A stretch of 25,366 nt of DNA, taken from IMG/VR virus record IMGVR_UViG_3300009425_000086, positions 1 to 25,366 of that record. One strand, given 5' to 3'. Source of the DNA: a virus. The translations under genes and the position numbers were made by a program. The notes beneath the pieces are model-generated. The model was not told the DNA's origin. It saw only the letters and a list, made by a program, of their open reading frames with translations, and did no database searches. Positions 12,815-24,411 of the stretch are shown here, one piece after another; the stretch's first letter is position 1, and each line of letters starts with the position of its first letter.

Positions 12815-15800
12815 ATGACAGAAAAAACTGATCTAAACGTATCACCCTACTATGACGATTATACTGAAGATAAAAACTTCCATAAGGTATTGTTCCGTTC
12901 AGGACGAGCTCTTCAATCTCGTGAATTAATTCAGTCACAATCCATACTACAAAATCAAATTGAAAGATCAGGTTCCCATTTATTTAAAGAAGGTTCCATT
13001 GTTGAAGGAGCTCAATCAGGTCTTGATTTAGAATTATATTATGTTAAAGTAAAGTCTGCAAACCCCAATGCTCTAGGTGATGCAAATGTAGAAACCTACA
13101 GAACAGCACTTGTTGGAAAATACTACCAAGGTAAAACTTCAGGAGTTGTTGGTAAGGTTATAATTACTAGTGCAGAAACTACAGACGATGCACTTACTGT
13201 CTTTGTAAAATATGCAACACAGGGAACAAATGATCGGAATTCAGCTACCTTCTTAGCAACAGAAGAATTACAAGAAGTACTATTAGGTGCAGACGGAGCA
13301 GCTTCCGTTGTTACAGCAAACTTAAACGAATTAGAAGTTAAAGCAAAAACAGATGCAGATCATCCTAGTGGTCTTGCTTCAATGGCAGCGATCAAAGAAG
13401 GTATTGTTTTTGTTAGAGGATTCTATGTCAAACTTCCTGCACAAGAACTTCTTCTTGAAAAATATAACGGTAAACCTTCATATAGGATTGGTCTTACTAT
13501 CACGGAATCACTGGTTGGTTCTGCAGCAGATATTTCACTATTAGATAATTCAACAGGAACATCAAACGAAAATTCAACTGGTGCAGACAGATTAAAGTTT
13601 GCACTAACACTTAGTAAGTATTCACTTACTACTACAGACGACACAGACTTTGTTGAGTTAATAAGAGTCAATAAAGGTATTATTGAAATTGCAATCAATA
13701 AACCAATATACGGTGCTATAGAAAATACACTTGCACGAAGAACTTTCGATGCAAACGGTGATTTTGTTTTAAACCAATACACACATAGTTTAAGAGAACA
13801 TTTAGACGACTCCACAAATATGGGGTTCTACACTAAACGAAATGGTGGCGATGAAGGAAAACTAGTACTTCAAGTATCGCCAGGCAAAGCGTACGTTAAA
13901 GGGTACGAGATTGATAAAATTGGAACATCCACAATTGCTCTTAATAAAGCACGAACAACTACATCATTAGATAATGCGAACACACCAGTTCGTATGGGGA
14001 ACAGACTTAAAGTTCTAAACACCCACTCTTTACCTGAATTTGGTAATGAGAGTGGATCAGATACAATGACCCCATTTAAAGCATGTGAGTTATGGGATAC
14101 AACAATTACTACTGCAGGAACTAAACCAACTGCAGGTCAAATCGGGTTTGCTAGAGTTAGAAATGTCGATTTAGATACAGGAACAGCTGCGTCTAATGTT
14201 TATACAGATGTATCTAGATGGAACATGTACATGTTTGACATCAAGATGTTTACTAAACTTACAGGGACAACCTCAGTTGCATCGTTTGTTGTAGGGGACA
14301 AAGTCACTGGTTCATCTTCAGGTGCAACAGGTATTGTTGCAACTACAGTTACTTCAGGTGGTGCATCTATATTGGTTCACGATGTTGTAGGAACATTTAC
14401 AGATGCAGATGCTATTTCAGTTAAGGGTGCAGGAAATACTGCTGTTATAGCAGATGTTACTGCAGTGAGAACATATAATATCGACAGAGCAAGGTCGATC
14501 ACCCAAACTGCAACAAACTCTTTAAGAGAAATATTTACTGCAGACCTTTATGCAAATAAAGACAACACACTAACAGGAACAGTTACGATTTTAACTAAAG
14601 CCGTAACTGGTTTCGGAACTTCATTCCAAAAAGAATTAAAACTAGGTGACATCATACTTGATGGTGCTGGTGCAGAGCGAATTATCGATAGTATTCATGC
14701 ATCCGATCAAACTGCAACCGTATCTGTTAATGCTACAGCAATGACAAATGCAAATTGCACAAGACGAAGAGTGCAGTTATTCGATCAAGATCAAACAGCT
14801 GCTATTTCATCTTGGCCTAGAGATTGGGTTAAATCAAACACACCTGAATCAATTCGGGTAAGACGACAATCAGTTGTCACGGTTGCATCAGCTTCTGTAT
14901 CAGTGGATACAGGTAGTAGTGCAACATTCTCTGACAGAAATTCAGACAACTTTACTATTGCAGTGCTCGAAGCAGGAACAGGCGGTAGTCAAAAATTAGT
15001 GGGTGATATACTTAATATAGAAGACTATACTTTGAGTGTCACATCTTCAGGTTCAGGACAAGCACTTTCAATATCAGGATTTCATGCTCATGATGAGGGT
15101 GCTGTATTAAGAATAACTTCTACACAGACTGTTACAGACCCAGTTAATAGGGATAAAGCATTAAGACAAGCAAGAGTATTAAAAGTTGGTTCAGCAAGAT
15201 CATCTAATGGATTTTACGGTACTGCATACGATGATAAAGATATTTCATTAGGTGTTTCAGATGCATATAAAATCCGTGGAATCTACGAAGGTACTGGTGG
15301 AAGTAATCCTTTACCACCTTCTGCAACATACACAGTATCCAGTGGAACTTTTGTGAACTATGAAAAAGTCATTGGTCAAACTTCAGGTGCTCATGGAATA
15401 ATCATTGCACACTCATTTACTGGTTCTCCTAAAACAGGGACAGCATATTTCTATTATGTCTCAGGAACATTCGTAAATACTGAACTCGTAGTTGGACAGA
15501 CTTCAACTGCAGTTGCACAATTAACTAATATGTCAGCAGGGTCTTCATCTGATATTTCATCAAGATACTTCTTTGACAATGGTCAGAGAGATGGTTTTTA
15601 TGACCTTGGAAAACTTACATTAAAAACAGGAGCTCCTGCTCCATCAAACCCAATTGCAATAGTATTTGATTACTTTTCTGCATCAGGTGGTGGTGATTTC
15701 TTTGATGTAAATTCATATTCAGGTATAGAGTATAAAGATATACCTACCTATTCACCAACAAAAGTTGACTTAGGTGGTCTAGAACCCGATGGAACATTTG

Positions 15801-18800
15801 AACTTTCAGATAGTGTTGACTTTAGACCAGTTGTCGGACAGGTTATCGGAACTACCACATTCGGAACTAATAACGCACAATCTGTAACCGCTCCAGTTGA
15901 TTTAAGTAATAGCACAAGTGGAGCTGTTTTTGCACCATTTGGGTATTCAACAGGTAGAGATTTCACTGCAAGTAGAAGTGGTATTTCAAGTACAGGTGCT
16001 AATACTCCCGATAGTCCTGTAAGTGGTTCAAGTTTTGTAGGGGATATCACATTCTATGTCGGAAGATACGATAAAATATTCTTACACAAATCAGGTGCAT
16101 GGCAAGTATCAGAAGGAACACCTGCATTATCACCAACTAAACCAAAAGCAGTGGACGATTCAATTGAATTATTTGAATTGTATGTTCCACCGTTTACCTT
16201 AAACCTAAAAAATATTAGAGTAAGGTCTCAAGATCATCGTAGATTTACGATGAAAGACATATCTAGGATTAACAAACGTGTTACTAACCTAGAAAGAATT
16301 ACATCTCTATCTTTATTGGAAAGAGATACACAATCAAAACAAATTTTAGACGGAGACGGATTTGATAGATTCAAATCAGGTTTCCTAGTAGATAACTTCA
16401 GAGGACATAAAGTTGGAGATGTAAACCATCCTGATTATGAGTGTGCTATTGATGTTAAAGCGGGTACAATGAGACCCCAAGCTTATTCACAGTTCTTTGA
16501 CATATCTTTAAACACTGGTAGTTCTTCTAGTTACCAAAAGACTGGTGACCTAATAACACTTCCATATACAGAAAAGACTTTTGTAAATGCTGATAAAGCA
16601 TCTCGTTCAATTAATGTAAACCCATACAGTGTATTCTCGTTCATGGGTTCAATGAAGTTAACGCCTGGCACAGATATATGGCAAGACACTACGCAACTAC
16701 CTGAAGTTAGAATCAATAGAGAAGGTAACTTTGATGCAATCAAATCTACTGTTGAAAATTCACTAGGAACAGTTTGGAATGCATGGCAGACTACATGGGT
16801 AGGAGAACCTACAACTGTATCAGAAGAAGTTACATCAACTTCTAGTGGTTCATGGTCAGGTGATCCAACACAAGGTGGTCAATGGATAGCAGGAGAAGAA
16901 GTAACTAGAGAGATTACTGAAACTGTTGAAACACAAACAAGAACAGGTGTCACAACAAGTGTCGTAGAAGACTTCGTAGAAACTAGGGCGGACAGAATAG
17001 TAAGTGTTGCACTTATACCTTTCATCCGTGCGAGATCAATTGAAGTTGACGGACAGAATTTAAAACCAAATACATTCCATTACTTCTACTTTGATAATAT
17101 TCAAGTAGATCAATATGTAAGACCTTACAGTGCAACATATTCACAAGATACTGGAACAACAGTAGTTTCGGGTCTTAAAACCGATGGTAATGGAAGACTA
17201 CGAGGATACTTCGATTTACCTAACACAACTGCACAAAGATTCCCAACTGGAATGAGAGAGTTGAGGGTAACTAATAGTTTTTATAATTTACCAAATCCTT
17301 CATCAGCAGCTTCTGCAATATATCAAGCACAAGGATTATTACAATCATCTCAAACTGAAGTTACCTCTACAAGAAATGGTAGGGTAGTTTACGAACATCA
17401 TACTGGAAATAGAGATGTCATATCTAGAGGTGAAGAGAATAACAGAATACCAGTGGATACAACAGCTCCGCAAGTTCCACCACCGCCTGTAGCTGATCCA
17501 CCGCCTGTGGTCATTGACCCTGTAGAAGAACCATCGGTGCCAGCACCGCCAGTACCTGATCCAGACCCAATTGATCCAGAAGTACCTACACTACCTGCTG
17601 ATCCACCACCGAGTTCACCACAAATACCAATGGAGGCACCTGATTTATGGATGCCTGATAGATGGGACATTGAACCTAGAAGACGAGGTTGGAGAGACCC
17701 TCTTGCACAATCATTTTTGGTTGAGTCAAAAGGTGGTATGTTTGCAACATCAATAGATACATACTTTGAAACTAAAGATACAAATATGCCTGTGTCTATA
17801 GAGATCAGAACAATGCATAATGGTTATCCTGCAAACATAGTAATGCCATTTTCAGAAGTAACTTTGCTTCCAGCTGCTGTTAATACATCAACAGATGGTT
17901 CTGCTAAAACAACATTTACATTCGACTCTCCAGTATACTTAGATGATGGAGTAGAATACTGTTTTGTAATTTCTTCAAACTCAAATGAGTACAATGCCTT
18001 TATCTCTAGAATGGGAGAGAAAGACCTTACAACTGGACAAACAATTGCAGAACAACCATACGCAGGTTCATTGTTTAAGTCACAAAATAACTCAACATGG
18101 ACTGCAGCACAGACAGACGATTTAAAATTCCATTTCAAAGCTGCATCATTTGATACAACTAAAACATCAACAATTAAATTTGATAACGATGCGTTACCAG
18201 CTCAAACACTACAAAGTAACCCTATACAAACATTCTTAGGTCAGACCTATGTTAAAGTATACAGTTATACACATGGTGGTTACAGTACTAATTCTAATGT
18301 CACTATTGCTAATGTCACAGGAGATAAAGAAAACTGTGTCTTAACTATAGCAGCACTGTCAGTGTCAGGAACACCGACTAACGGAACATATACTAATATC
18401 GGTCATTCTGGCGGAACAGGTACAGGGTGTACAGTTGATATAGTAGTTAGTGGCGGTTCAGTAACATCAACTCTTATTAATAAAACAGGTTCAGGATATT
18501 CTGCATCTGATACACTAACAATCAACACTTTCGGTGGTGCGACTGGAACAGTAGCAGTAGACACTATTGGTAATACACTAGGTGGGATACCAATTGCAGC
18601 CATCAATGCAACATATACTGCGTCTGCAAATATAGGAATTGACTCATACACAGTTATTCCTGATCTTTCTGCATATGACTTTATATCAGGTTACAGTGCA
18701 GATGACTCTACAGTTGGTGGTGGATTGAAAACCTTTGGAAAAGGATTAGATGATGACGGTAAAGAAATAAACATAGTTACAGGTGGAGTAACAGCAACAA

Positions 18801-19561
18801 GAGATTATTACTTCGATACATTACATACAATGATACCTAATCTCCAAGCAAACGGTACAAGAATGACAGCTAGTGTAAACACAACTGCAATGTACTCACC
18901 TGAAGGATATATTAATGGATCAGTTTATACTAAGAGACCAATAAAAGCAGATATTACTTTAAATGACAATGCATGGATAGGATATCCTTCTATTGTTGCA
19001 TCACCAATCAATGAAGCAACCAATATGAGTGGTGTAAAATCATTCACTTGCACACTACAAATGCAATCAGCAAATAGTAATATATCACCAGTTATTGATC
19101 TTGATTCAATCGGTGTTCTTGGTATTGCGAACAGAATTAATAACATAGATAGTAGTGCAGATGTACCCAATGGGACAACCTATGTAGCATCTACTGCTCC
19201 TGATGGTGATAACAATGCAATGTCATACATGACTAGAAAGGTAAGTTTAAAGACTCCTGCACAAGGATTAAGAGTTACAGTAGACTTCTTTAGACCACCA
19301 ACAACAGATTTAAAAGTACTCTACAAAGTCTTAGAGAATGATAGTTCAACACCATTCGATGATTTAGAATGGAAATACTTTAATACAGATGGTTCACCCG
19401 ACACAGCAATAGCAGCGGATGGAAGAAACTATAAAGAATATGAATTTTCAGCAAATGATTTACCTGAGTACAGTGCATTCTCAATTAAAATTGTAGGACA
19501 AGGAACCAATACTTCAGTCGTTCCTATGGTGTCTGCATTGAGAACTATTGCACTTGCGTAA
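12815..19561 (+). CDS. Giant tail/baseplate protein, DUF4815-like
   Basis: This 2248-residue protein begins with a segment I recognise from marine T4-like phages and the DUF4815 family: SPYYDDYTEDKNFHKVLFRS, GRALQSRELIQSQSILQNQI, then GSHLFKEGSIV. The central part is beta-rich, with GSSSGATG- and GQTSGAHG-type modules at about residues 490-535 and 840-910. A helical stretch is near residues 1150-1180 (RINKRVTNLERITSLSLLER). About residues 1548-1610 are a proline-rich acidic linker. It is followed by WRDPLAQSFLVESKGGMFAT, a motif seen in tail proteins that carry lectin-like ends. A GxGY module lies near 1852-1906. By position after gp8 it takes the place of T4 genes 9-12, and I infer it forms the baseplate periphery or a fibre attachment arm. 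No enzymatic motif was seen. AAGGA lies very close to the ATG (12808-12812). Confidence 0.72.
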   Translation: MTEKTDLNVSPYYDDYTEDKNFHKVLFRSGRALQSRELIQSQSILQNQIERSGSHLFKEGSIVEGAQSGLDLELYYVKVKSANPNALGDANVETYRTALVGKYYQGKTSGVVGKVIITSAETTDDALTVFVKYATQGTNDRNSATFLATEELQEVLLGADGAASVVTANLNELEVKAKTDADHPSGLASMAAIKEGIVFVRGFYVKLPAQELLLEKYNGKPSYRIGLTITESLVGSAADISLLDNSTGTSNENSTGADRLKFALTLSKYSLTTTDDTDFVELIRVNKGIIEIAINKPIYGAIENTLARRTFDANGDFVLNQYTHSLREHLDDSTNMGFYTKRNGGDEGKLVLQVSPGKAYVKGYEIDKIGTSTIALNKARTTTSLDNANTPVRMGNRLKVLNTHSLPEFGNESGSDTMTPFKACELWDTTITTAGTKPTAGQIGFARVRNVDLDTGTAASNVYTDVSRWNMYMFDIKMFTKLTGTTSVASFVVGDKVTGSSSGATGIVATTVTSGGASILVHDVVGTFTDADAISVKGAGNTAVIADVTAVRTYNIDRARSITQTATNSLREIFTADLYANKDNTLTGTVTILTKAVTGFGTSFQKELKLGDIILDGAGAERIIDSIHASDQTATVSVNATAMTNANCTRRRVQLFDQDQTAAISSWPRDWVKSNTPESIRVRRQSVVTVASASVSVDTGSSATFSDRNSDNFTIAVLEAGTGGSQKLVGDILNIEDYTLSVTSSGSGQALSISGFHAHDEGAVLRITSTQTVTDPVNRDKALRQARVLKVGSARSSNGFYGTAYDDKDISLGVSDAYKIRGIYEGTGGSNPLPPSATYTVSSGTFVNYEKVIGQTSGAHGIIIAHSFTGSPKTGTAYFYYVSGTFVNTELVVGQTSTAVAQLTNMSAGSSSDISSRYFFDNGQRDGFYDLGKLTLKTGAPAPSNPIAIVFDYFSASGGGDFFDVNSYSGIEYKDIPTYSPTKVDLGGLEPDGTFELSDSVDFRPVVGQVIGTTTFGTNNAQSVTAPVDLSNSTSGAVFAPFGYSTGRDFTASRSGISSTGANTPDSPVSGSSFVGDITFYVGRYDKIFLHKSGAWQVSEGTPALSPTKPKAVDDSIELFELYVPPFTLNLKNIRVRSQDHRRFTMKDISRINKRVTNLERITSLSLLERDTQSKQILDGDGFDRFKSGFLVDNFRGHKVGDVNHPDYECAIDVKAGTMRPQAYSQFFDISLNTGSSSSYQKTGDLITLPYTEKTFVNADKASRSINVNPYSVFSFMGSMKLTPGTDIWQDTTQLPEVRINREGNFDAIKSTVENSLGTVWNAWQTTWVGEPTTVSEEVTSTSSGSWSGDPTQGGQWIAGEEVTREITETVETQTRTGVTTSVVEDFVETRADRIVSVALIPFIRARSIEVDGQNLKPNTFHYFYFDNIQVDQYVRPYSATYSQDTGTTVVSGLKTDGNGRLRGYFDLPNTTAQRFPTGMRELRVTNSFYNLPNPSSAASAIYQAQGLLQSSQTEVTSTRNGRVVYEHHTGNRDVISRGEENNRIPVDTTAPQVPPPPVADPPPVVIDPVEEPSVPAPPVPDPDPIDPEVPTLPADPPPSSPQIPMEAPDLWMPDRWDIEPRRRGWRDPLAQSFLVESKGGMFATSIDTYFETKDTNMPVSIEIRTMHNGYPANIVMPFSEVTLLPAAVNTSTDGSAKTTFTFDSPVYLDDGVEYCFVISSNSNEYNAFISRMGEKDLTTGQTIAEQPYAGSLFKSQNNSTWTAAQTDDLKFHFKAASFDTTKTSTIKFDNDALPAQTLQSNPIQTFLGQTYVKVYSYTHGGYSTNSNVTIANVTGDKENCVLTIAALSVSGTPTNGTYTNIGHSGGTGTGCTVDIVVSGGSVTSTLINKTGSGYSASDTLTINTFGGATGTVAVDTIGNTLGGIPIAAINATYTASANIGIDSYTVIPDLSAYDFISGYSADDSTVGGGLKTFGKGLDDDGKEINIVTGGVTATRDYYFDTLHTMIPNLQANGTRMTASVNTTAMYSPEGYINGSVYTKRPIKADITLNDNAWIGYPSIVASPINEATNMSGVKSFTCTLQMQSANSNISPVIDLDSIGVLGIANRINNIDSSADVPNGTTYVASTAPDGDNNAMSYMTRKVSLKTPAQGLRVTVDFFRPPTTDLKVLYKVLENDSSTPFDDLEWKYFNTDGSPDTAIAADGRNYKEYEFSANDLPEYSAFSIKIVGQGTNTSVVPMVSALRTIALA
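17455..17643 (+). other. Proline-rich hinge within the giant tail protein
   Basis: About 60 residues (1548-1610) are dominated by Pro, Asp, Val and Ala (for example PPPPVADPPPVVIDPVEEP). They separate the DUF4815-like N-terminal part from a C-terminal beta-rich part that begins with the DPLAQSFLV motif. Such segments usually form stiff or flexible extended linkers, so this is probably a hinge between a baseplate-bound body and a distal domain. Confidence 0.8.
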
Positions 19562-21819: not shown

Positions 21820-23547
21820 ATGTCAGACGAAATTTTTATAAACACAGGTACTAGCTTTCAGCAACAGTACACTGCAAGACAACCTGCGATAAGTCAAGTT
21901 ACTACGCCTGCGATAAGAGACGCACAGGGGAACACAAGCGCACAGACTCCATTTACTTACAATCATAGACAACCCTATGCTTTTAGGAGTCCTTCAAGCG
22001 CACAGACTCCTAGTATTGGTCAAGCAAGATCACCGTCTACATATCAGAGACAAGGACAAACGCCTGATACCTATCAAGCAAGAAGTCCATTTACTTATCC
22101 TCGGATAGCACAGATTGTATATCAAAATCCCACTACTTACCAAAATAGACAGCCTGGCACATATCCAAGGATTGCACAGATTGTATATCCTTACATTGCA
22201 CAAGCAAGACAACCGAGTATATACCGACATCCGACTATTTTACGCACCCCATTTACTTACAACCATAGGTCACCATCTGCCCAGCAGAATACAGGAAACT
22301 CTAGACAATCAATAGCGTATCCTGCAGATATACAGAGTCCAGCTCGACAACCTAGTATTGTTCAGAGTCCTAGTATTGTTCAGAGTCCTAGTATTGTACA
22401 GACTCCTAGTAGTACTCAAACGCCAACGAGTCAGCGGACTCCGAGTACTTCTCAACAATCGACAAACCAGCAAAGTCCTAGTACTTCTCAACAATCGACA
22501 AACCAGCAGGCCAACACGAATACACAGACTAGTGTACAGTCTTTTACACAGGTGCCGTACAACAATACCGATGGTACTACTGCTGCAACTTTAGCTGCTC
22601 AGTCAAGTCATAACCATACCAACTATTCCTATGCTAACACATGGACTGTAAGGTTAAGATTTAGAATGGTAGTAACTATCAGCGGTAGTTCTCAAACTAT
22701 TGTTTGGCAAATAAGCAGGGGTGGCCAGTCTGGGCAAGAATTTCCTGTACAACAAGCTGCTTCCAATTTCTATGGAAGTGGGGGAAACGTGGCGTTTTCT
22801 GGTACATGGCGAACGGTAGAAACATGGGTATTTACTGGTGGTAGTACTTTGTTTGCCGACACTGTTGGTTTTGGCAGTACTGTTTCTTCATCCCTGTATT
22901 CTGCTACTTCGTCTGCGACACATGAAACTTACATACAGCGCTTAATGAATTGTGAAGAAAGTTTCAGTATTCCACCTAGCGGTGTTATTAATGCAAGCTA
23001 TACTGTAGCACCTAACGCTCAAAAATCAGGTTATCCTACTCTTACTACAAACAATCATTCCGTTGACTTGGACATGTCGGTAAGTTGTCAAGGGAGTTGT
23101 TTCTTTGCTGGAACACAAGTTCTTCTTTCCGACAATACCACTAAAAATATAGAATTAATGGAAGCAGGTGATATGGTTATAGGACAAGACGGTGTAGTTA
23201 ATGCCGTTGTTGATGTAATTACAGTATCTAAGGAAAACGACACATTCTACACTATTAATGGTGGTTTACAAACAACACCATCTCATCCACTCTTAACAAC
23301 TACAGGTTGGAAGTGTTGTGATATCACAGTGAACCCTAACGAACATGCTGATTTAAATATGACAGACTTAGCAATTGGAGACTTCCTTGTTAAGACTGCG
23401 AATGATGGAACAATATCAAGTGAAGAGGTAACAACTCTTACTAACGAAACTATCGATGATGTTACAATTTATAACTTGGATGTGACAGATTCCCCTGAAG
23501 GGAATGACACATATGTGGTTGACAATTATGTTGTACATAACAAGTAG
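21820..23547 (+). CDS. Repeat-rich tail protein with a C-terminal Hint (hedgehog/intein) autoprocessing domain
   Basis: This 575-residue protein has three parts. Residues about 18-240 are degenerate 6-8-residue repeats of the form (Q/R)(S/T)P(S/F)(T/I)(Y/V), rich in Gln, Pro, Thr, Ser and Tyr, with no Lys, Cys or Trp. Residues about 240-425 are a beta-rich domain (WTVRLRFRMVVTISGSSQTI). Residues 427-574 are a Hint domain: Cys427 starts block A (CFFAGTQVLLSD, then IELMEAGDMVIGQDG), T486-P-S-H489 is block B, and YNLDV, then DTYVVDNYVVHN, forms the C-terminal block ending His573-Asn574. One Lys follows before the stop. Known Hint domains attack the peptide bond before the Cys, so the 426-residue N-terminal part may be released or ligated to another molecule; the terminal Lys is not a normal splicing nucleophile. 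No ribosome binding site is obvious. Confidence 0.85.
   Translation: MSDEIFINTGTSFQQQYTARQPAISQVTTPAIRDAQGNTSAQTPFTYNHRQPYAFRSPSSAQTPSIGQARSPSTYQRQGQTPDTYQARSPFTYPRIAQIVYQNPTTYQNRQPGTYPRIAQIVYPYIAQARQPSIYRHPTILRTPFTYNHRSPSAQQNTGNSRQSIAYPADIQSPARQPSIVQSPSIVQSPSIVQTPSSTQTPTSQRTPSTSQQSTNQQSPSTSQQSTNQQANTNTQTSVQSFTQVPYNNTDGTTAATLAAQSSHNHTNYSYANTWTVRLRFRMVVTISGSSQTIVWQISRGGQSGQEFPVQQAASNFYGSGGNVAFSGTWRTVETWVFTGGSTLFADTVGFGSTVSSSLYSATSSATHETYIQRLMNCEESFSIPPSGVINASYTVAPNAQKSGYPTLTTNNHSVDLDMSVSCQGSCFFAGTQVLLSDNTTKNIELMEAGDMVIGQDGVVNAVVDVITVSKENDTFYTINGGLQTTPSHPLLTTTGWKCCDITVNPNEHADLNMTDLAIGDFLVKTANDGTISSEEVTTLTNETIDDVTIYNLDVTDSPEGNDTYVVDNYVVHNK
22351..22404 (+). repeat. Tandem 18-nt coding repeats (QSPSIV)
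   Basis: Three head-to-tail 18-nt units begin at 22351, 22369 and 22387; the first two are identical and the third differs by two bases. They encode the six-residue unit PSIVQS/T of the Hint-tailed protein. Unit number could change by slippage or recombination. Confidence 0.9.
22413..22509 (+). repeat. Repeat block shared with the downstream twin gene
   Basis: Two exact matches to the next gene lie here: 30 nt (22413-22442 equals 23625-23654) and 36 nt (22474-22509 equals 23686-23721). A further 20-nt match is 21991-22010 with 23899-23918, and a 21-nt match is 21936-21956 with 23904-23924. The matches keep the same reading frame. Confidence 0.92.
23098..23544 (+). other. Hint domain coding segment
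   Basis: This segment codes for residues 427-575 of the repeat protein, about 149 residues, the size of a mini-intein without an endonuclease. Key residues seen are Cys427 at the start, the GTxV motif next to it, Thr486 and His489 (TxxH), and the terminal His573-Asn574. There is no homing endonuclease motif (no LAGLIDADG pair). Confidence 0.85.
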
Positions 23548-23559: not shown

Positions 23560-24411
23560 ATGAGTATATGGACATCAGACGCAATCCCATCCCGATCACC
23601 TAGCATTACACAGACTCCTAGCACTACTCAAACGCCAACGAGTCAGCGGACTCCTAGCACTACTCAAACGCCAACGAGTCAGCAGAGTCCTAGTACTTCT
23701 CAACAATCGACAAACCAGCAGACTACTTATACAAAGCAGACTACTTATACAAAGCAGACTAATGCCAATCACCAAACCAGCTACAGGCATCCGAGTACAT
23801 ATCAACATCAAGTACAAAATCCATCTACTTATCCGTATATAATAAATACTCAAACTCCGAGTATTGCAAATGGACAGTCGTCTTCTAATGTTCAGAATCC
23901 TTCAAGCGCACAGACTCCATTTACACATAGTGCTGATGGTCAAACACCTTATGCATATCAGGCTACTGGACAAACTCCATATATTGCAAATAGACAAAAT
24001 GCTGCACAAACACCTTATGCATATCAGGCTACTGGACAACAACCTTATATTGCAAATAGACAAAACGCTTATCCTTATACTGCAAATGCACAGAGTCCAT
24101 TTACTTACCAACATAGGACACCGTCAATATATCAAAATCCTTTAATTGGTCAAAACCCCACTATTGGTGATGCCAGACAACCCAGTATAGTTCAAACTCC
24201 TTATACTCTTGCGTATCAGTATCAAGCACCTTTTACATATCAGGTGACCTATCCTAATACAAGAACTATTGGGCCGCTTGCTAAAGTGAAAGGAATATTC
24301 AGAAACAAAGGTGATGGAACTGTAGAAAAAGTGGATGAAGTCTATACAAATGATAGTGGCACACTAGAAAAAATTCATCAATCTGTTCCTACAGCACAGT
24401 ATCAAACTTAA
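23560..24411 (+). CDS. Repeat-rich twin of the Hint-tailed protein, with a fibre-type C-terminus
   Basis: This 283-residue protein has the same kind of low-complexity repeats as the preceding gene (residues about 13-230): QTPSTTQTPTSQRTPS, SPSTSQQSTNQQ, QTPYAYQATGQTPYIANRQN and SPFTYQHRTPS. It lacks the beta domain and the Hint domain. The last 45 residues (IGPLAKVKGIFRNKGDGTVE, then KVDEVYTNDSGTLEKIHQ, residues 238-276) form a paired-strand motif like those at the ends of phage tail proteins (V-K-x-Y-x-K-x-x-G-x-x-K-x-V type). Lys is absent from the repeats except in two QTTYTK units. The gene lies in the same frame as its neighbour, 12 nt after its TAG. It is probably a fibre or adhesion protein working together with, or acting as acceptor for, the Hint protein; this role is inferred. 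Confidence 0.78.
   Translation: MSIWTSDAIPSRSPSITQTPSTTQTPTSQRTPSTTQTPTSQQSPSTSQQSTNQQTTYTKQTTYTKQTNANHQTSYRHPSTYQHQVQNPSTYPYIINTQTPSIANGQSSSNVQNPSSAQTPFTHSADGQTPYAYQATGQTPYIANRQNAAQTPYAYQATGQQPYIANRQNAYPYTANAQSPFTYQHRTPSIYQNPLIGQNPTIGDARQPSIVQTPYTLAYQYQAPFTYQVTYPNTRTIGPLAKVKGIFRNKGDGTVEKVDEVYTNDSGTLEKIHQSVPTAQYQT
23614..23685 (+). repeat. Tandem 36-nt coding repeat (TPSTTQTPTSQR)
   Basis: Two near-identical 36-nt units start at 23614 and 23650, differing near the end (CGG versus CAG). They encode a 12-residue unit of the twin protein. Confidence 0.9.
23719..23754 (+). repeat. Tandem 18-nt coding repeat (QTTYTK)
   Basis: Two identical 18-nt units (23719-23736 and 23737-23754) encode QTTYTK twice, the only Lys-containing repeats in the protein's low-complexity part. 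Confidence 0.9.
23941..24072 (+). repeat. Tandem 66-nt coding repeat (QTPYAYQATGQxPYIANRQNA)
   Basis: Two copies of a 66-nt unit start at 23941 and 24007 with few differences. They encode a 22-residue Tyr-rich unit of the twin protein. The first 33 nt of each copy are identical. Confidence 0.9.

Follow-up and report, generated by a model that had tools for sequence, protein, structure and literature searches.

The stretch of DNA analysed here (the window) is a 25,366-base IMG/VR fragment carrying T4-like baseplate genes, one of which is nearest to its counterparts in Pelagibacter phage HTVC008M, Mosig and cyanophages (35–37% identity). The genes and features discussed in the following are located at these positions:

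12815–19561, plus strand: VrlC homologue, probably marking the start of the host-recognition region
21820–23547, plus strand: gene A, a 575-residue fibre-type protein built from a head, xP repeats and a beta region and ending in a Hint domain
21820–21864, plus strand: conserved N-terminal head of gene A, MSDEIFINTGTSFQQ (type I)
21877–22539, plus strand: xP repeat region of gene A with even spacing of 6, 8 or 10 residues
22540–23097, plus strand: beta-rich module of gene A, residues 241–426
23098–23544, plus strand: Hint domain, most likely a BIL, residues 427–574, plus Lys575
23275–23286, plus strand: block B motif TPSH, residues 486–489
23536–23547, plus strand: His573-Asn574-Lys575-stop
23560–24411, plus strand: gene B, a partner protein with xP repeats and a conserved C-terminal PLAKVKGxF...KIHQSVPTAQ region

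The product of the VrlC homologue comprises 2248 residues and shares 32–36% identity with VrlC of HTVC008M over two long segments. In pelagimyophages, a variable host-recognition cluster including tail fibres is located after VrlC (PMC7029224). Gene A lies directly downstream of the VrlC homologue, and the contig stops before any neck gene. It translates into 575 residues without internal stops and has relatives in other loci (among them L001, L004 and L008). As judged from sequence and position, gene A most likely encodes a marine T4-like phage's tail protein of the fibre or adhesin type and probably sits in the host-recognition region; the tail protein proposed in the preliminary description is upheld by this locus and is of the tail-fibre type. 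A protein with an LtfC-like domain is encoded after gene B. No family above cut-off was obtained for gene A in NCBIfam and PHROGs, and neither the whole gene A protein nor gene B matched any named phage in a BLAST search, the low-complexity filter of which possibly masks the repeats. A comparable repeat gene was absent from the stretches of HTVC008M and Mosig that were read.

The repeats that had been noted in gene A are real and follow a strict spacing rule. In 203 unique relatives, the distance from one x-P to the next was 6, 8 or 10 residues in 1714, 2651 and 1020 pairs, respectively, while distances of 5, 7 or 9 residues were nearly absent (2, 34 and 24 pairs; the corresponding window regions are 21877–22539 and 23560–24300). 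This even register suggests extended or strand-like repeat units. Gene B contains the same repeats as gene A, also at the DNA level; no fold was obtained for them in gene B with AlphaFold2 (pLDDT 39). In several loci (L097, L101, L014 and L118) the head of gene A and the tail of gene B form a single open reading frame. A comparison that also covered L127 and L130 shows that, in phages in which the two genes are split, a variable module or a Hint domain is found at the break point. The beta domain assigned to the region after the repeats is plausible from the sequence and from a homologous region in L008; the model gives it little backing, as residues 241–426 have low pLDDT and no fold could be assigned. 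This module is the probable receptor-binding part of the gene A product. It ends with Ser426, the last residue of the N-extein. A second cysteine is present four residues before Cys1 in the window (CQGSC, Cys423 and Cys427) as well as in L001 (CPGCC) and L086 (CPLCC), and a Cys423-Cys427 disulfide could serve as a redox latch on processing.

A Hint domain at the very C-terminus, the central claim of the preliminary description, was borne out by sequence and by structure prediction. Cys427 (preceded by Ser426), TPSH at 486–489 and His-Asn-Lys at 573–575 are all present. In Pfam, the families PF14623 (Vint, 34.5 bits, cut-off 27) and PF05203 (Hom_end_hint, 33.6 bits, cut-off 32.1) were matched, both starting at residues 426–427, and PI-SceI was found as a weak match in a search of PDB sequences (E 0.0025). 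An AlphaFold2 model of residues 241–575, based on an alignment of 49 relatives, shows a horseshoe-shaped, all-beta Hint fold with a pLDDT of 94–98 over most of the domain and Z scores of 13–21 to many inteins and BILs. The best solved fold is BIL2 of Tetrahymena BUBL1 (6y75; Z 21.5, 1.5 Å over 138 residues), a match which, for the predicted model, is far above chance. It is followed by the A-type BIL of Clostridium thermocellum (2lwy; Z 18.0, 1.6 Å over 126 residues), by inteins from Z 17.7 downwards (6riz, nearly tied with 2lwy) and by hedgehog (Z 16.6). Among 28 gene A Hint domains with a median pairwise identity of 34%, Cys1 and the block B histidine are conserved in all 28 and His-Asn in 26.

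The domain ends with His573-Asn574 and is followed at position +1 by Lys575 instead of Cys, Ser or Thr, as is characteristic of A-type BILs; BIL structures also top the fold list. A canonical class 1 intein would carry Cys, Ser or Thr at +1, where here a lysine precedes the stop codon. Hedgehog proteins have a sterol-recognition region after the Hint domain, while gene A ends one residue past it; since His-Asn is conserved and BILs head the fold list, the hedgehog reading was ranked behind a BIL. Taking sequence and model together, residues 427–575 most likely constitute an A-type BIL domain.

Scans of IMG/VR yielded many relatives of genes A and B, which allow the position of the Hint domain in this family to be described. 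The heads of gene A fall into two types, type I (MSDEIFINTG..., as in the window; found in 74 loci) and type II (MATGSQKVKTPTGW...). The middle part always consists of xP repeats, and the C-terminal module is variable: it can be one of various beta-rich ends, a stretch rich in Gly, or a Hint domain. The latter was present in 4 of 43 distinct type I C-termini (window, L008, L001 and L086) and in 24 of 55 of type II. Where type I homologues share this beta module but have no Hint domain (L116, L015, L012, L013 and L017), they end at the position at which the Hint domain would begin. By this comparison, the Hint domain is an optional module appended to an otherwise complete protein, and the cap is probably removable. 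In type II, it is preceded by a Gly tract and followed by a short tail. When it is deleted in silico, the resulting tails resemble those of Hint-free proteins, a resemblance resting on low-complexity sequence: an aromatic residue follows the Gly run in 14/24 compared to 7/10 (overall F/Y frequency 8%), and Lys or Arg is found among the last three residues in 23/24 compared to 9/10 (background 33%). In a VrlC homologue with a related, internal Hint domain (L239), homology to the VrlC of the window restarts exactly at the residue following His-Asn.

Several further arrangements were observed. In L239 and L245, the BIL-like Hint domain lies inside VrlC before RDPLSQTF, and the +1 residue is Arg. 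Nearly identical C-terminal beta modules are attached to a type I and a type II head in L009 and L025, indicating module exchange between two fibre genes. Two to three tandem Hint domains per phage protein are encoded in L300, L249, L243, L251 and L244, some of them separated by linkers of only a few residues, often Lys. A similar terminal Hint domain recurs in unrelated carriers. In Thr-Pro-rich proteins (L335, L331, L327 and relatives), Cys1 and the His-Asn-Lys-stop end are present and the block B histidine is absent (MTYTQP). In L001 (6001–7821) and L086 (5001–6689), His-Asn is lost (VDS) together with the terminal Lys, while Cys1 and the block B histidine are kept; judging by these two proteins, the family tolerates cleavage on the N-terminal side only, or a lack of activity.

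The residue after His-Asn deserves separate treatment, as the single Lys after Asn574 had been taken to rule against normal splicing. This argument fails, since A-type BILs can splice without a +1 nucleophile (PMC4031507); it is also countered by the invariance of the lysine in terminal Hint domains and by sister genes, in which the residues after His-Asn resemble Hint-free tails. A motif scan of IMG/VR for Hint C-termini followed directly by a stop codon, run with a single motif form and with TAA and TAG stops only, returned three matches, none of which was a real Hint domain ending at Asn. When one extra codon was allowed, 32 matches were obtained, all of them Hint-type C-termini and all with Lys (32/32). 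The Cys1 motif was found at the correct distance in 25 of these, and five of the remaining seven are short fragments. Because many of these rows are near-duplicates, Hint domains with up to three residues after Asn were clustered, and Lys was the +1 residue in every cluster (5/5 at 40%, 20/20 at 50% and 30/30 at 70% identity). One scan of bacterial genomes added seven real Hint domains and one cut by the contig end, all with Lys, whereas chance matches ended in Leu, Ser, Phe, Cys, Tyr or, once, Lys. The bacterial proteins ending in this way are L479, L480, L481, L467, L471, L473 and L486, of which L480 contains leucine-rich repeats. In a control with the motif applied without the downstream condition, mostly true inteins were recovered, a +1 Cys, Ser or Thr being present in 56 of 64.

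A signal at the DNA level was rejected as the reason for the lysine, as distinct rows contain 16 AAA and 15 AAG codons and three different stops, and so was a general C-terminal bias, given that Lys is the last residue in 9% of the neighbouring proteins. As no real Hint domain was seen to end at Asn and all 32 carry one more residue, a peptide bond following the Asn is apparently required. The invariant lysine in terminal Hint domains of phages and bacteria, so far seen in sequences, suggests a chemical role that has not been described. Alternatively, Lys575 could play a structural role as a single-residue C-extein.

On balance, we consider it fairly probable that the gene A product is a tail protein of the fibre or adhesin type in which the A-type BIL of residues 427–575 acts as a self-removing C-terminal cap. 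The fold, the conserved active site, the terminal position, the optional nature of the module and the lysine rule are features of gene A and its family. The activity, order of steps and fate of the thioester would follow the known A-type BILs, which have a C-terminal His-Asn and no +1 nucleophile: a thioester forms at Cys1, the Asn cyclises, and aminolysis can then complete splicing, although cleavage products dominate (PMC4031507). Cleavage in front of Cys427 and handover to a nucleophile, as proposed in the preliminary description, would be plausible on this basis. After folding, the Ser426-Cys427 bond would be converted into a thioester with the help of His489. Cyclisation of Asn574 would then break the Asn574-Lys575 bond, and resolution of the thioester would free the Hint domain from the repeat and beta-rich protein. 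Since A-type BILs lack a Cys, Ser or Thr at +1, the thioester would be either captured by the amine of the freed Lys575, which yields the mature end ...CQGS-Lys, or hydrolysed, which yields ...CQGS. Known BILs yield mostly cleavage products (PMC7664689), and splicing of the cap may therefore be minor.

The alternative that holds up best is simple N-terminal cleavage, in which thioester hydrolysis frees a folding or solubility domain on maturation, in a role like that of the C-terminal chaperone domains of tail fibres. The terminal location, the optional occurrence, the intact Cys1 and block B histidine and the existence of members lacking His-Asn (L001 and L086) are in line with it. We nevertheless regard it as unlikely, as it leaves the conserved His-Asn and Lys, as well as the absence of real domains ending at Asn, unexplained.

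A somewhat bolder and rather doubtful proposal is that the +1 Lys is functional and defines a lysine class of Hint domains of its own, in which the side-chain or main-chain amine of this Lys takes the thioester. The fibre would then end in a Lys that has been added enzymatically or that is attached by an isopeptide bond, or be joined via Lys to another molecule. If true, this class would represent a third +1 chemistry, alongside that of inteins with Cys, Ser or Thr and that of the BILs known to date, which are non-nucleophilic at this position.

Covalent attachment is a serious rival because BIL2, the nearest fold, is reported to make isopeptide bonds. The thioester made by the Hint domain would be passed to the side chain of a lysine in another subunit (the gene B product or a neighbouring fibre chain) or to an amine of the cell surface, creating an isopeptide bond. 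This is the reaction reported for BIL2 of Tetrahymena BUBL1, which links a C-terminus to the side chain of a lysine and needs a nucleophilic lysine (PMC8616854); in a variant, the protein may carry its own acceptor in Lys575. An invariant Lys behind His-Asn in terminal Hint domains and Gly-rich ends before Cys1 in type II would fit. However, most gene A homologues are Hint-free, and attachment is hence not needed for the fibre; moreover, the acceptors are candidates only and fold likeness does not establish a reaction, so that we rate this reading as improbable. Least probable is a relic or selfish element, an intein devoid of endonuclease and +1 nucleophile and kept by chance: the 148-residue domain indeed contains no homing endonuclease, its distribution over type I and type II C-termini is patchy and the L335 family lacks the block B histidine, but the active-site residues are invariant despite low overall identity, Lys is kept via synonymous codons across many carriers and comparable domains are found repeatedly in carriers that are not related.

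The question of why BIL domains exist can be addressed in this family, where they repeatedly cap fibre-type proteins of abundant marine phages as an optional module; since capped and uncapped versions occur as natural pairs, their role becomes testable. The His-Asn-Lys-stop rule provides a specific one-residue prediction on the chemistry of the whole class. A fibre end that is processed, as in the favoured self-removing cap, or ligated would be a new maturation step for phage host-binding proteins. No description of BIL domains in phage tail proteins was found in the open-access literature; the lysine rule may be noted in subscription papers.

Among the known systems, BIL4 of C. thermocellum (2lwy) shares the Hint fold (28% identity), Cys1, the block B histidine, His-Asn and the lack of a +1 nucleophile with the domain of gene A. 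In reviews, BILs are assigned to variable regions of bacterial proteins (PMC7765530). In contrast to BIL4, the domain of the window forms the very end of a phage fibre-type protein, in which a single Lys is left past Asn. BIL2 of Tetrahymena BUBL1 (6y75, 6tmm), the closest fold, has 23% identity and lies between ubiquitin-like domains of a ciliate protein, whereas the window protein has no ubiquitin-like part. The canonical inteins of phage enzymes (terminase, helicase) have the fold and the block A, B and G motifs in common with it, but are followed by a +1 Cys, Ser or Thr and a long C-extein instead of Lys and a stop. The hedgehog autoprocessing domain (1at0) is similar in its C-terminal position, N-S acyl shift chemistry and fold; the domain of gene A differs in keeping His-Asn and in having no sterol-recognition region, and is closer in fold to the BILs.
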